A stretch of 64,000 nt of DNA, taken from the NCBI GenBank assembly GCA_016199935.1, contig JACQFS010000170.1, positions 1 through 64,000 of the forward strand, read 5' to 3'. Below are positions 8,042 to 64,000 of the stretch, in pieces. Origin of the DNA: Verrucomicrobiota bacterium. Lineage in GTDB: Bacteria > Verrucomicrobiota > Verrucomicrobiia > Limisphaerales > JACQFS01. The position numbers and the translations under genes were made by a program. Positions within the stretch are counted from its first letter, which is position 1. Each line of letters begins with the position of its first letter. A model generated the notes under the pieces. It was given only the letters and a program-made list of their open reading frames with translations, was not told where the DNA came from and did no database searches.

Positions 8042-8083
8042 GGCCGCGTCCGGCGGCGCTTGAAACGGGCTCCGGCTTGCGAC

Positions 8084-8377
8084 GATCTGAACTCAAATCG
8101 TGGCTGGTCAGACTCAAGCGACGGTGATCTGAACCCAACCTGCCGCGGTCTGAACTCAAACTGCCGCGTTTCGAACTCAAACCGCGGCAAGTTGGATTCA
8201 AACTGTGACGATCTGAACTCAACCAGCCGCAAGTTGGATTCAAACTGCCGGAATCTGAACTCAAACTGCGGCGATTTGGACTCAGATCGCGGTGATTTGG
8301 ACCCAGATCGTGACGATTGGGACCCAGATTGCGACGATTTGGACCCAGATTGCGACGATTTGGACTCAGATCGCGAC
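8084..8377. repeat. 21-bp degenerate tandem repeat array A (14 units)
   Basis: 14 consecutive 21-mers without indels, e.g. gatctgaactcaaatcgtggc, ggtctgaactcaaactgccgc, gatttggactcagatcgcggt, gatttggacccagattgcgac; approximate consensus GATYTGRACYCARAYTGCGRC. Confidence 0.95.
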
Positions 8378-8507
8378 GATCAAAGTCTGAATTCCACGCA
8401 CTTTAGACCAGTTATCCACTTCCAAACACGATATTTACGTCGCTTTACGTCAGCTTCAGCCTGCCGCCCCACGTCCGGTGTCCAGCCAGAACCGGCGTTT
8501 CCCCGGG

Positions 8508-24847: not shown

Positions 24848-25120
24848 CGCCTTTTCCCTCCTCGGAAGCGTCGTTTCCCTCCTCGGGAACGACGTTCCCG
24901 TCCACGGAGACCACGTTTCCGACCACGGGAACGACGTTTCCGAGGAGGAATGCGTCGTTTCCACGCCGGGAGTCGGCGGCTCCTTGGAGGGGCGCGCCGC
25001 TTCCCTGCGGAGCAGCGAGGCGTCCCTGCATGGAAACCGGGCTTGTCTGCGGGGTGGTCGCGTCACCTTGGAGGGAAGAGGCGCGACTGCGGAGGGTGAC
25101 GCAGCGTTCGTGGTGGGAGG
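24848..25120. repeat. 21-bp degenerate tandem repeat array B (~13 units)
   Basis: consecutive 21-mers cgtcgtttccctcctcgggaa, cgacgttcccgtccacggaga, ccacgtttccgaccacgggaa, cgacgtttccgaggaggaatg, cgtcgtttccacgccgggagt ... Confidence 0.9.
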
Positions 25121-25172
25121 CTCCGGCTTGCTGTCCTCAGCGAGTCGCAAAACCATCTTCCGCGTTTGGTCG

Positions 25173-25541: not shown

Positions 25542-26249
25542 ATGCAACTGTTTTACGACTCCGCGACGCCCGTTTTCTACGACGCGCCCACGAGCCATTA
25601 CGACAGCGGTGCCGCGGAGCCGATCCTACGTAAAATGAAAAAAATAAAAGCTGACAGCCGCAACCTCCCCGTCCCGAACAAAGTCCTCAAGGGCCAGGAG
25701 GTCGCCGGCAAACTCGCGGCCAACGCGGCGCTCCCGCAAATGGCCGCCTTCTCCGCCACCCTCCTGACCGCCACGACGCTGATGGACAACGACTACAAGG
25801 CGGCCGTCGCCGCCGCCGACACCGCCAAGCAGCTCTTCAACGCCGCGCGCGTCTCCGAGTCGGCGTGGGACACGCTCTACGTGCAGGGCGCGGCGGACGT
25901 GAACAAATTCGGCACCACCGAGGCCGTCCGCCTCAGCAGCGGCTACCCGCTCGAATCCGACCGCACGCCCATCGGCCCGCTGCCCGCCCCGGCGAACTTC
26001 ACCGTCACCTTCGGCGACATGCCGGGCACGCTCTCCTTCACCATGGACCCGGTGAAGGGCGCCAAGACGTATCTGATCGAGCTCGCCACGGCGGCCACCG
26101 GCCCCTTCACGCAGGTGCTGGTCAGCACGTCGTCCGACGGCGTGGTGCCGGGCCTGACGAGCGGCACGGTTTATTATCTGCGCGCCAAGGCCGTCGGCGC
26201 CGCGGGCACCGGCGCGGCGAGCGACATCGCCATGAAGATGGCACCCTAG
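25542..26249 (+). CDS. hypothetical protein with C-terminal fibronectin type III-like domain
   Basis: PAPANFTVTFGDMPGTLSFTMDPVKGAKTYLIELATAATGPFTQV...VPGLTSGTVYYLRAKAVGAAGTGAAS. Confidence 0.75.
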   Translation: MQLFYDSATPVFYDAPTSHYDSGAAEPILRKMKKIKADSRNLPVPNKVLKGQEVAGKLAANAALPQMAAFSATLLTATTLMDNDYKAAVAAADTAKQLFNAARVSESAWDTLYVQGAADVNKFGTTEAVRLSSGYPLESDRTPIGPLPAPANFTVTFGDMPGTLSFTMDPVKGAKTYLIELATAATGPFTQVLVSTSSDGVVPGLTSGTVYYLRAKAVGAAGTGAASDIAMKMAP

Positions 26250-26522: not shown

Positions 26523-26936
26523 ATGCCCTTCGATCCCACCAAGCCCGCGACCGACGCCCCGCTGCTCTCCGCCGAACTGCGCGCGCAGTTCAACGGCCTG
26601 CGCGACGACCTCCACGCCGAAATCACCACCATCCCGCAGGGCCCACCCGGCAACGACGGCGCGGACGGCCTTCCCGGCGACAAGGGAGACAAAGGCGACA
26701 AGGGCGATTCCGGTGACAAAGGGGACAAGGGCGACCCGGGGAACACTGGCGCGACCGGCGAGGTGACGACCGTGCAGTTGAACGAGGCGCTCAACACGGC
26801 CATCGCCGGCACGAGCAGCAACACGAACGCCGTGCCGACGCTGGACACGCCCTTCGTCAACGACCCGCCCACGCTCGCGGACATGGAACTGATGCGCGCG
26901 GCGTATAACGCGCTCGTGCTGGCGATGCGTCGGTAA
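26523..26936 (+). CDS. short collagen-like (Gly-X-Y) protein
   Basis: GPPGNDGADGLPGDKGDKGDKGDSGDKGDKGDPGNTGATG; termini similar to the 60821..61342 protein. Confidence 0.85.
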   Translation: MPFDPTKPATDAPLLSAELRAQFNGLRDDLHAEITTIPQGPPGNDGADGLPGDKGDKGDKGDSGDKGDKGDPGNTGATGEVTTVQLNEALNTAIAGTSSNTNAVPTLDTPFVNDPPTLADMELMRAAYNALVLAMRR

Positions 26937-60074: not shown

Positions 60075-60418
60075 AGGAAACCTTCAATCTCTGGCTCGAG
60101 GACAACACGCAGTTGTCCGTCATCCTCGCGTGCGCGCTGCGGCACCCTGATCGCGAGATCCACAGCCTGAGTTACGCGCCGGAATTTCCCCAACCCGCGT
60201 GCGAGGAGGCCTGGGCGTGCATGGCCGAGGCGCAGCGGTTGATGGACAAACTCAAGATGCCCCGCGGCCGGTTCTGCTGGAGCTTCCAGTCGGCGCGATT
60301 TTATTTCGGCGCGCGCCGCGACGGCGTCTGCCTCGGCTTGATCACGATGCCGAACCCGCCCGCCGAGCAGATTGAGAAAATCTTCGCCGACTTCCAGGCG
60401 ATCCCCGCCGCCGCATGA
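60071..60418 (+). CDS. hypothetical protein, roadblock-like
   Basis: [39 protein letters not shown]...; overlaps upstream stop; ATGA overlap with downstream gene. Confidence 0.65.
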
Positions 60419-60804
60419 GCGCCGATCCGCTGCCCAAGCTCGTCGAGGAACTCGGCATCCATTCCTACCGCCGCCACATTTTTCTCTGTGCGGATCAGAC
60501 GGAGGCGAAATGCTGCGCGAAGGAAGCCGGCCTCGCCTCGTGGGAATTTCTCAAGCGCCGGCTCAAGGAACTCGGCCTCGCCGGGCCGAACCCGCTCATC
60601 TATCGCTCCAAGGCCAACTGCCTGCGCGTCTGCACGCGCGGTCCCGTGGCCGTCGTCTATCCCGAGGGCGTCTGGTATCACGGCTGCACGCCGGAAGTTC
60701 TGGAGCAGATCATCCAGTCGCACCTCATCAAGGGCAAACCCCTCGCGACGCACGCCTTCGCCGAGAACCCGTTCTTCGCCGGCATCGTGCGGCGGGGAAA
60801 ATAG
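60415..60804 (+). CDS. (2Fe-2S) ferredoxin, thioredoxin-like fold
   Basis: [37 protein letters not shown]...[41 protein letters not shown]. Confidence 0.93.
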
Positions 60805-60820
60805 CTTCCGAGGAAATGTT

Positions 60821-61342
60821 TTATCGCCGCGCGGCAGTGATAAACTCGTTGACCTTGTCAATCAGCGCTTGGACCACGGGGTCTGAATGCGTGTCTGGGA
60901 TAAGATCAACAGCGTTTGTATTGTTGCTTGTTCCATTCACGGCGTTGGCGAGGGCATCCGTCATCTGCTGATTCGTGACTTCGCCGGGCAGACCCTGCGT
61001 CCCGTCGTGCCCGCGCGGGATGCCGAAGGTGAAATGCACGTTGCCGTCGAAACTGACCGCCACGGTCGCGGGATCGTCGGGATTGAGAGTATTCACCCCG
61101 TCAACAAACGCGTTGGCAAATGGCGGCCCTTGCGTTCCAGGCGTGCCATCGTTGCCCGGATCACCCTTGTCGCCTTTGTCGCCGCCATCCCCTTTGTCTC
61201 CCTTGTCGCCTTTTTCGCCTGGGTCACCTTTGTCACCTTTTGGAATGGCGGTGAGGCCGTCGTTGAGCGCGTTCAGTTGGGCGCGCATTCCATCGCCATC
61301 CAGTGGATCGCCGTTCTGCGGATAATTCGGATTGAAGGGCAT
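60821..61342 (-). CDS. short collagen-like (Gly-X-Y) protein
   Basis: GDKGDPGEKGDKGDKGDGGDKGDKGDPGNDGTPGTQGPP; MPF(N/D)P N-terminus and TNAV...A(A)RR C-terminus shared with 26523..26936. Confidence 0.85.
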   Translation of the reverse strand: MPFNPNYPQNGDPLDGDGMRAQLNALNDGLTAIPKGDKGDPGEKGDKGDKGDGGDKGDKGDPGNDGTPGTQGPPFANAFVDGVNTLNPDDPATVAVSFDGNVHFTFGIPRGHDGTQGLPGEVTNQQMTDALANAVNGTSNNTNAVDLIPDTHSDPVVQALIDKVNEFITAARR

Positions 61343-61382
61343 AATTTAGAGTGGTTGAAGTTGTGGTGGGCGGGTTTCAGAT

Positions 61383-61718
61383 CGGTTTGGACAGGTTTCC
61401 ATCCGGTTCGAAAACATTTCTAATCGGTTTAAACACATTTCTTTTCTCGTCGGAAGGGTTTCCAAACGGTTTGGAAACCCTCCTTTTCGGTTTGGACACT
61501 TTTCCCACGGCTCGGAACACGTTTCCCATCGGTTTGGAAGGCTGCCTTTTTCATTTGGAAACCCTTTCCATCGGCTGGGAAGGCTGTCGGAAGCGTTTGG
61601 AAACTCTCCTTTTTCGTTTGGAAATCCTTCCAACCGGTTTGGACGCCTGCTTTTTGACTTCGGAACGCTGTCCAAAGTGTTTGGGCAGGCGCCCAAACGG
61701 CCGGAAGACCCTTTTCAG
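61383..61718. repeat. 21-bp degenerate tandem repeat array C (~16 units)
   Basis: consecutive 21-mers cggtttggacaggtttccatc, cggttcgaaaacatttctaat, cggtttaaacacatttctttt, ctcgtcggaagggtttccaaa, cggtttggaaaccctcctttt ... Confidence 0.93.
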
Positions 61719-62098
61719 GGGTTCGGCGGGGTGGGCGGAGTGTTGTCGCCCCCGTTGTTCGGGCCGCGACCGCGGAGGGACTTGCGGATGCGGGTGCCTT
61801 CCTTCGCTTCCACCGAGCGGGAGCCGAGCTTGCTGATGGCCGTGGTGAGCGCATCGCTACCGTCCATGTAGCCGCCGTCGCAGGCCGCGTTGACAGCGGT
61901 CGTCTTGTTGGCGAGGTCGGTCTTCAACTTCTCCTGATCGGAGTCGAGCTTGCTCAGGGCCGTGGCGGCAGCGCGGGCGGTCGCGATGTCGTCGGTGGGG
62001 TCATACTTCTTCGCCTGAAGCTGAACTTTATACTTGTCCAGAAAGTCGGCGACCTCGTTGAGGAAGCCGATACACTGCGTTACATTAACGGCAGCCAT
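61715..62098 (-). CDS. hypothetical protein, helical, Pro/Asn-rich tail
   Basis: MAAVNVTQCIGFLNEVADFLDKYKVQLQAKKYDPTDDIATARAAATALSKLDSDQEKLKTDLANKTTAVNAA... Confidence 0.7.
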   Translation of the reverse strand: MAAVNVTQCIGFLNEVADFLDKYKVQLQAKKYDPTDDIATARAAATALSKLDSDQEKLKTDLANKTTAVNAACDGGYMDGSDALTTAISKLGSRSVEAKEGTRIRKSLRGRGPNNGGDNTPPTPPNP

Positions 62099-62359
62099 AT
62101 GCTTTTTCCTTTCATTTTGTTGTTCCTGCCCACCCCATGTAAGCCCGCGCTGTCCCCAGCGCCGGGAAGGCTTCCATGTCAAGGTTGGCATGGCTGCCAA
62201 GAAGGCATAACGCGTGCCAACTCAGAATTGAGAAATGGTTTCCAACCTGCTAGCGATGTCTATAGCGAAGGCAACCGTCCCTAACGGAAGTCTGAATAGC
62301 ACCGCGTCATTCACCTTGGATGGAAGCCGGACTGATGTCGTCGCTCAGTCCAAAAACCT

Positions 62360-63439
62360 TCATTCTGGTCCGGATCGCTTGAGTTCAAGCGCTGGATCAA
62401 ATTCGAGATTTCTAGAACCCCTGGGGTTAACATAGGCAAGTATTCCAAAATGCGCGCGATCATTGGCTGTCACTAGCATCTTCACGTATCCAAATTTCCC
62501 GCTTTTGAGTCGAAAATAATAGCTCTGCTCCACTTGGTCAAACCAGCGCGAGTCGTTTGCCGTCCTGATTATCTCCATTGCTGGTTTATATCCTTGCTCT
62601 GGGGCTTGGAAAGGAAATTCCTCGAGAGCTTCGACAAGTCCGCCACCAAGCACGCTGATTTTAACCTGCCAATCGTATTTGAGCCGGAAATCCAGCTTTC
62701 CGAGCGGAGCGATGAGTTCGACACGCATATCGCCCATTCCCAGCACCGTTTGTTTTCCCGTTTCCAATGATATTTCAATCGGGTTGCCATCTCGCGGCAA
62801 CGGATATGTTAGCCATTTTCCGATCCCTGGCTGTTTCAAGACAACGAGCGGCTCCGCTTTACCCTTCTTTCGAAGGCGAAAGATCACAGGCTGAGAGACG
62901 TCCGGGTGAAACGGCCCATCCGGGTCACCATAAGTAAATCCTCGTGGGTTGTCACGATACGGGTAGTAACCCTCCTTTGAGACACTCACTCCAAGATCAT
63001 AGCCCTTAGCCCCGGAAAGTTGGAAAAACCCGTCTCCATTCGATTTTGCAGCTTGCCGCGAAGTTCCATCCGCGGATAAGTCTGTCCAGATAAATACGAC
63101 ATCAGCCTCGGCGATTGGGTTTTCATTTTCATCCACTACTTTGCCGAAGAAATCAATCGGCGTGCGCCATCTTTCTGCCATCTGTTCAGGAGCCGCATCT
63201 CGCGCGGCTTTGCGCAAGGCCAGCCATTCTGGCACGGAATTACTATTAAGAAGGTGCCTGGGCGTGCCCGACGATTGCGGAAATGTTGGAGGGCGAAGCG
63301 CAGGAGGGTTGCTTTGTAGGCAAACGCTAGAACTAATTCTGGGTTCTGGAACGTATCGTTTGGCACGTAAATCGACAAACCACCAAGCCGCACAAAACAA
63401 AACCAGCGCGCATCCAAATAAAATTGTTCTCCGTCTCAT
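62360..63439 (-). CDS. hypothetical protein with carboxypeptidase-regulatory-like region
   Basis: N-terminal TM; FGKVVDENENPIAEADVVFIWTDLSADGTSRQAAKSNGDGFFQLSGAKGYDLGVSVSKEGYYP. Confidence 0.65.
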   Translation of the reverse strand: MRRRTILFGCALVLFCAAWWFVDLRAKRYVPEPRISSSVCLQSNPPALRPPTFPQSSGTPRHLLNSNSVPEWLALRKAARDAAPEQMAERWRTPIDFFGKVVDENENPIAEADVVFIWTDLSADGTSRQAAKSNGDGFFQLSGAKGYDLGVSVSKEGYYPYRDNPRGFTYGDPDGPFHPDVSQPVIFRLRKKGKAEPLVVLKQPGIGKWLTYPLPRDGNPIEISLETGKQTVLGMGDMRVELIAPLGKLDFRLKYDWQVKISVLGGGLVEALEEFPFQAPEQGYKPAMEIIRTANDSRWFDQVEQSYYFRLKSGKFGYVKMLVTANDRAHFGILAYVNPRGSRNLEFDPALELKRSGPE

Positions 63440-63441
63440 AG

Positions 63442-64000
63442 CTAAAAGGGTGAGATTCCGAAGCTGCTAAGCACCTGCTGCCAGTATGGGCCAGCGCCCT
63501 GAATAGGATAAGCAAACTGAGCACTATGTTCCGTCCGTTCTCTGCCAAAATTGAATGGCGGCGCATTGAGGTTCACCGAAGCCTGTATCACTCCCGCCAT
63601 GTTGTCCTGCGCCCCGACCGCTCGCGAGCGGCTTCGCGCAACAAATGATTTGGCTATATGCAAGTCTGTAACAAAATTGGAAACTGTAACCAATGGTGTG
63701 CTCTGTAAATACCATGATTGCCGCGTGTTTGTATTAAAACCCCATGAATCGATTACACCTCCGTAAGTGTAATATTCTGGTTTGTAATTCTCTTGGTTGG
63801 CTTCCCAATTAGTTTCGAGAAATTCAGTGCAAAAACCCTTTGCTAACGCATAATCGTTTGTGTTGTAAAAGCTAATGATTCTTCCCGTCAAATTCGTAAA
63901 ACACCCGTGATAACCGCCCTCTTGATATGTAAATGGGGTCTGTTGACCAGCCTCGGACTCTTTATTCAGAAATCGCTGCAAAAATGGTGCATTTGTTGAA
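63442..64000 (-). CDS. C-terminal part of an alpha/beta-hydrolase-like or hypothetical protein, truncated by the window edge
   Basis: open to window end; GRIISFYNTNDYALAKGFCTEFLETNWEANQENYKPEYYTYG ... RTEHSAQFAYPIQGAGPYWQQVLSSFGISPF. Confidence 0.5.
   Translation of the reverse strand, partial: STNAPFLQRFLNKESEAGQQTPFTYQEGGYHGCFTNLTGRIISFYNTNDYALAKGFCTEFLETNWEANQENYKPEYYTYGGVIDSWGFNTNTRQSWYLQSTPLVTVSNFVTDLHIAKSFVARSRSRAVGAQDNMAGVIQASVNLNAPPFNFGRERTEHSAQFAYPIQGAGPYWQQVLSSFGISPF

Follow-up and report, generated by a model that had tools for sequence, protein, structure and literature searches.

The window (the whole stretch of 64,000 nucleotides that was analysed) carries on its minus strand gene X and a collagen-like gene of the MPFD family, both small and surface-protein-like, and between them an array of degenerate 21-bp units, here array C; carboxypeptidase-regulatory-like and ferredoxin-like genes are also found in the flanks (Table 1). 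Read on the minus strand, array C begins at the stop codon of gene X and ends 40 bp short of the ATG at 61342, in agreement with the preliminary description, whose further statement that ~16 units of 21 bp lie between two co-directional accessory genes was confirmed; the repeat was detected by both autocorrelation and TRF. Autocorrelation peaks of 0.47, 0.54, and 0.58 were obtained at offsets of 21, 42, and 63 bp, against an identity of 0.14-0.30 at most other offsets and minor peaks of ~0.33 near 10.5 and 31.5. The units are ~53% alike, so that array C, though degenerate, has stayed in register. In the surrounding region (60400-63500) no match to the Rfam 15 covariance models was obtained up to E=1, and no sigma-70-like promoter was found in the array C region.

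Table 1. Positions, numbered within the window, of the arrays, genes, and open frame considered in the text
Feature	Position	Strand	Description
Array A	8075..8400		Class of array C; between convergent genes, no identified cassette beside it
Array B	24850..25129		Class of array C; unit ACGTTTCCCTGCAGGGAAGCG; 5' of Y-MPFD cassette
Gene Y	25542..26249	+	235 aa; C-terminal end with a weak match to fibronectin type III
Second collagen-like MPFD gene of the window	26523..26936	+	
Collagen-like gene, MPFD family	60821..61342	-	Pfam Collagen E 1.4e-7; profile A3; directly 3' of array C in the direction of transcription
Open frame proposed as heptad peptide	61346..61696	-	TTG start; judged not coding
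Array C	61383..61714		16 degenerate units of 21 bp, near-palindromic and non-coding; consensus CGGTTTGGAAACC[C]TTTCCAT
Gene X	61715..62098	-	127 aa, helical, with a Pro-rich tail; a 21-bp array follows every homologue

Gene X is predicted to be helical (pLDDT 82), with no significant structural neighbour in the PDB. Its homologues were identified on two more contigs of this genome, in three genomes of the same order (G002, G024, and G100) and, with the single gene X protein as query, in two named Verrucomicrobia MAGs, at the loci L130 (JAPLTX010000038.1) and L131 (JACRQF010000013.1). A 21-bp array follows shortly after gene X in every homologue (this genome and five others), each locus having its own unit except for the orthologous pair L130/L131; such arrays are thus more than the local curiosity to which the preliminary description would have reduced them had relatives lacked them. 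The complete order, X, array, and a collagen-like gene with the start MPFD, is present at six loci in four genomes (array C of the window, L020, L029, G002, L130, and L131), and no MPFD gene was found after the array in G024 and G100.

A profile of the start of the MPFD gene found matches in 23 of the 320 genomes of the order; this genome has at least 20 copies, and G067, G320, and G321 have 15-17 each. From the 23 genomes 30 MPFD loci were fetched, and half of them (15/30) bear an array, in all 15 cases upstream of the MPFD gene, where it either adjoins that gene or stands just 5' of gene Y (~235 aa, one end of which resembles fibronectin type III). The array lies within the gene pair in X-type cassettes and ahead of the pair in Y-type cassettes. 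Relatives of gene Y were not found in viral contigs or plasmids, neither X nor Y resembles DNA-binding proteins, and no DNA-binding gene consistently adjoins the arrays. Two candidate starts were observed in gene X (window 62098-62200) and in Y genes (L158, L159, L162, L168, L171, and L180), where an in-frame leader, [YW]D..PGLTYDSG..YD in Y and RGLTWGG in X, precedes a strong ribosome-binding site and another ATG.

Arrays of this class were found in 18 bacterial genomes. When periodicity was scanned in 1.34 Mb sampled from the 5.03-Mb Verrucomicrobiota MAG (260 contigs), 16 stretches of period 21 passed the strict threshold and at most one did so at any other period except 21, 42, and 63; array C is therefore non-random and far above chance. 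The density is about one array per 84 kb, and by extrapolation from the 1.34 Mb the whole genome would hold ~55-60 arrays, a count to be read as a lower bound since arrays break the assembly, contigs L040 and L095 ending within one; in G024 one array was present in the 386 kb sampled. About half of the arrays of this genome, array A included, have no identified cassette alongside. No earlier description of such arrays was found in the literature searched, which left out most subscription journals. The class is well supported as real, and its mechanism is what we infer below.

What the arrays share is geometry. The period falls within 20.85-21.15 bp in all 20 arrays tested, and dyad symmetry is significant (p<0.05) in 28 of 32 (column-permutation test; Fisher p ~1e-43), the unit matching its own reverse complement around two symmetry axes set 10.5 bp apart. 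Both hold in arrays of unrelated sequence, whose units are only 43-60% alike and in which register slips are almost absent. No single sequence family runs through the arrays, as unit profiles are mostly unrelated from one array to another and a unit is nearly always private to its locus, the exceptions being L040, L095, L063b and, less closely, A. The kinship between arrays A and C proposed in the preliminary description, on the strength of a common unit core, had to be given up, their profiles being no closer than column-shuffled ones (z=-0.2). Nor is there a common A/T phasing of the kind that marks curvature, power at 21, 10.5, 7, and 5.25 bp varying by array. In 7 of the 32 arrays, including array C, the half-site GGAAA/TTTCC is present (null mean 0.16, maximum 3). 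The dyad symmetry of the unit, the strict period of two helical turns across unrelated arrays, the genome-wide occurrence and the conserved position in cassettes all go beyond the first reading of this locus.

Some arrays depart from this picture in one way or another. Three of them (L040 12440-12698, L095 18529-18714, and L063 5120-5440) have a common unit, AGTTTGCGGCGGACTGGCTCC, and L045 opens at its contig start (1-84) with four perfect 21-bp repeats, AAAACTCTAGCCGGAGGTCGT, unlike the degenerate arrays. At L170 1201-1450 palindromes of the forms GCGAAC..GTTCGC and CTCAC..TGAG alternate, as judged by eye, with one-base slips, and L170 may stand apart in having compensated halves, which a test tied to the register did not pick up.

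The two halves of a unit were further compared by re-assorting right halves among the units of each array, which did not lower pairing (Stouffer z -0.34 and -0.90, 32 arrays); individual arrays (L042, L063b, and L168) do pair in register at one axis. Since half-sites lack in-register covariation, hairpins are not the thing selected, and the half-sites thus behave like independent copies of a locus-specific, alternately inverted motif, one to each helical turn.

A closer view of how arrays change comes from the orthologous pair L130/L131, whose source relatives are 94% identical in gyrA and 92% in rlmN. Between their arrays 16% of positions differ, and one of the two is longer by exactly one 21-bp unit, the differences falling in blocks that resemble the swap of one unit type for another, with about half of the unit nearly invariant and the remainder variable. 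The X-array-MPFD block is homologous between the relatives, its flanks are non-homologous, and the homology ends outside the array. In G321 the cassette lies between gyrA and rlmN, and in G320 it lies ~13 kb beyond rlmN, the gyrA-rlmN interval there being filled by a different MPFD cassette (G320:C5:52607). From the homologous block, the non-homologous flanks and the differing positions, the cassette probably moved and took its array along; as both genomes are MAGs, an assembly error is possible. The interval looks as if cassettes had been swapped at a site. Two further observations concern the same genomes and loci: a strong inverted repeat, conserved in L130 and L131 (GCGGTCCGG...CCGGACCGC), stands directly after the stop of gene X and before the array, and many dispersed repeats of 40-100 bp are present in G320 and G321, the region close to the 3' end of gyrA being one example.

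The period, the dyad symmetry, the privacy of units, the position, the gain or loss of one unit, the cassette positions and the absence of both coding signal and hairpin covariation are the observed basis for interpretation. The reading that we tentatively favour, at a little under an even chance, is that the array serves as a cis-acting platform of phased, alternately inverted half-sites for a putative DNA-binding protein, controlling or insulating the gene 3' of it; half-sites of the kind described are what such a platform would be expected to show, and a period of exactly two turns is not easily accounted for in another way. The array would present ~24-32 half-sites of alternating orientation, spaced at roughly one helical turn (10.5 bp), with every 21-bp unit forming a degenerate palindrome on one face of the DNA. 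The putative binder would be a dimeric or oligomeric protein acting on a multi-site platform, and the gene just 3', either the collagen-like gene or the Y-collagen pair, may be controlled or insulated by it. Exchange, gain, and loss of units would homogenise each array internally (concerted evolution), producing a motif private to the locus, and a mobile surface-protein cassette would carry its own array when relocating.

Several results argue for a binding platform: the period stays fixed in spite of differing sequence, other periods being essentially absent; dyad symmetry is significant in 28 of 32 arrays; the left half of a unit assorts without regard to the right half, which is what half-sites read singly should show; every array-bearing MPFD locus has its array upstream of the gene; and the orthologues keep a half-unit nearly invariant, beside the recurrence of the GGAAA/TTTCC half-site. 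Against it, one protein would have neither a common motif nor common A/T phasing to read, no DNA-binding gene stands consistently beside the arrays, X and Y do not look like such proteins, the array lies inside the X-type pair yet in front of the Y-type pair, about half of the arrays are away from identified cassettes, and the region yielded no sigma-70-like promoter.

The main rival is a functionless satellite with a generating process of 21 bp, in which slippage and template switching between inverted half-sites would create and sustain near-palindromic arrays at permissive intergenic places. We consider it an unlikely account, though one of real weight: sequences are private to the locus, orthologous arrays show a difference of exactly one unit as well as blocks resembling unit replacement, and unit similarity falls slightly with distance. 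Nevertheless, it sits poorly with an exact 21-bp period in unrelated arrays whose units are 43-60% alike and hardly ever slip in register, with a placement upstream of one gene family that is far from random, and with the near invariance of a half-unit between orthologues.

Less likely is that the array is transcribed and acts as RNA, as a chain of short hairpins in an X-collagen message that would stabilise it, attenuate it, or space translation. Folding of the arrays is far stronger than that of shuffled sequence (z down to -15) and in most cases also exceeds that of column-shuffled versions; gene X and the collagen gene are co-directional, and L042, L063b, and L168 pair in register at one axis. 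However, in-register covariation is absent overall, the sense strand is not the better folder, the distribution of G-T versus A-C pairs does not correspond to gene direction, arrays also stand 5' of Y genes and between convergent genes, Rfam holds no match, and the exact 21-bp period would be left unexplained. Hairpins kept by pairing, whether in RNA or as cruciforms, were rejected on the lack of overall covariation and of strand preference.

A site for recombination, with the array moving X-collagen and Y-collagen cassettes by a logic like that of integron attC sites, appears more improbable still. The different places of the X-array-MPFD block in two close relatives with non-homologous flanks, the other MPFD cassette in the old interval, and the conservation of symmetry rather than sequence would suit it, but the array lies on one side of the cassette or inside it and not at both ends, the homology between relatives stops outside the array, no recombinase was seen in the cassette, and both compared genomes are MAGs.

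Finally, the heptad-repeat peptide suggested in the preliminary description can hardly be upheld and was rejected: its minus-strand frame does exist, open for 116 codons in units of seven codons (21 bp), but it starts at TTG, frames on both strands (+ 61351..61836 and - 61429..61854) are likewise open over most of array C so that an open frame is no evidence of coding, column identity by codon phase is flat (0.50/0.57/0.52), array L042 has stop codons in four of six frames, and the comparison of homologous arrays by codon position, which that description had named as a check on translation, shows equal differences at the three phases between L130 and L131 (12/13/12, against 9/3/11 for gene X).

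If the platform reading is taken further, the arrays would represent a new class of cis-element in which geometry alone is inherited (two helical turns, alternating inverted half-sites, ~10-16 units) and sequence is private to the locus, giving each scattered mobile cassette of collagen or fibronectin type its own address, to be read by locus-specific or very tolerant putative binders; this wider proposal is a doubtful one. Repeat families are usually found through a common sequence, and the present arrays would escape such searches, as their period and symmetry are conserved and their sequence is not. If they are regulatory, selection would be acting on helical spacing over dozens of unrelated sequences in one genome, and the arrays would serve as markers of a large family of surface-protein-like cassettes, uncharacterised and apparently mobile, in Verrucomicrobiota.

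Several known systems resemble the arrays in part. Iterons and plasmid centromeres (replication iterons, sopC, and parC) consist of tandem, helix-phased sites of ~20 bp bound by a dimeric protein. The arrays are like them in helix phasing, whereas they are scattered among dozens of sites on the chromosome, every site having a sequence of its own, and array C has no replication initiator or partition gene in its flanks. As in REP elements, BIMEs, and REPINs, the palindromes are short, extragenic, and alternating in orientation; a REP sequence, in contrast, is common to the genome, and array units are nearly always private and held in a strict 21-bp register. VNTRs and minisatellites likewise have tandem units, and orthologues that differ by a whole unit, as L130 and L131 do, but the units of the arrays are far from near identity, and period and dyad symmetry extend across unrelated arrays. 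Integron attC sites also keep symmetry above sequence beside gene cassettes that relocate; unlike them, the arrays are tandem runs of ~16 units that flank the cassette on one side or lie within it, with no integrase seen and no in-register pairing signal. CRISPR arrays share with array C only the form of a regular intergenic repeat series, its units being contiguous and degenerate, with no spacers. Taken together, the class is a variety of the tandem-repeat or phased-site kind, a categorically new kind being the minority case.
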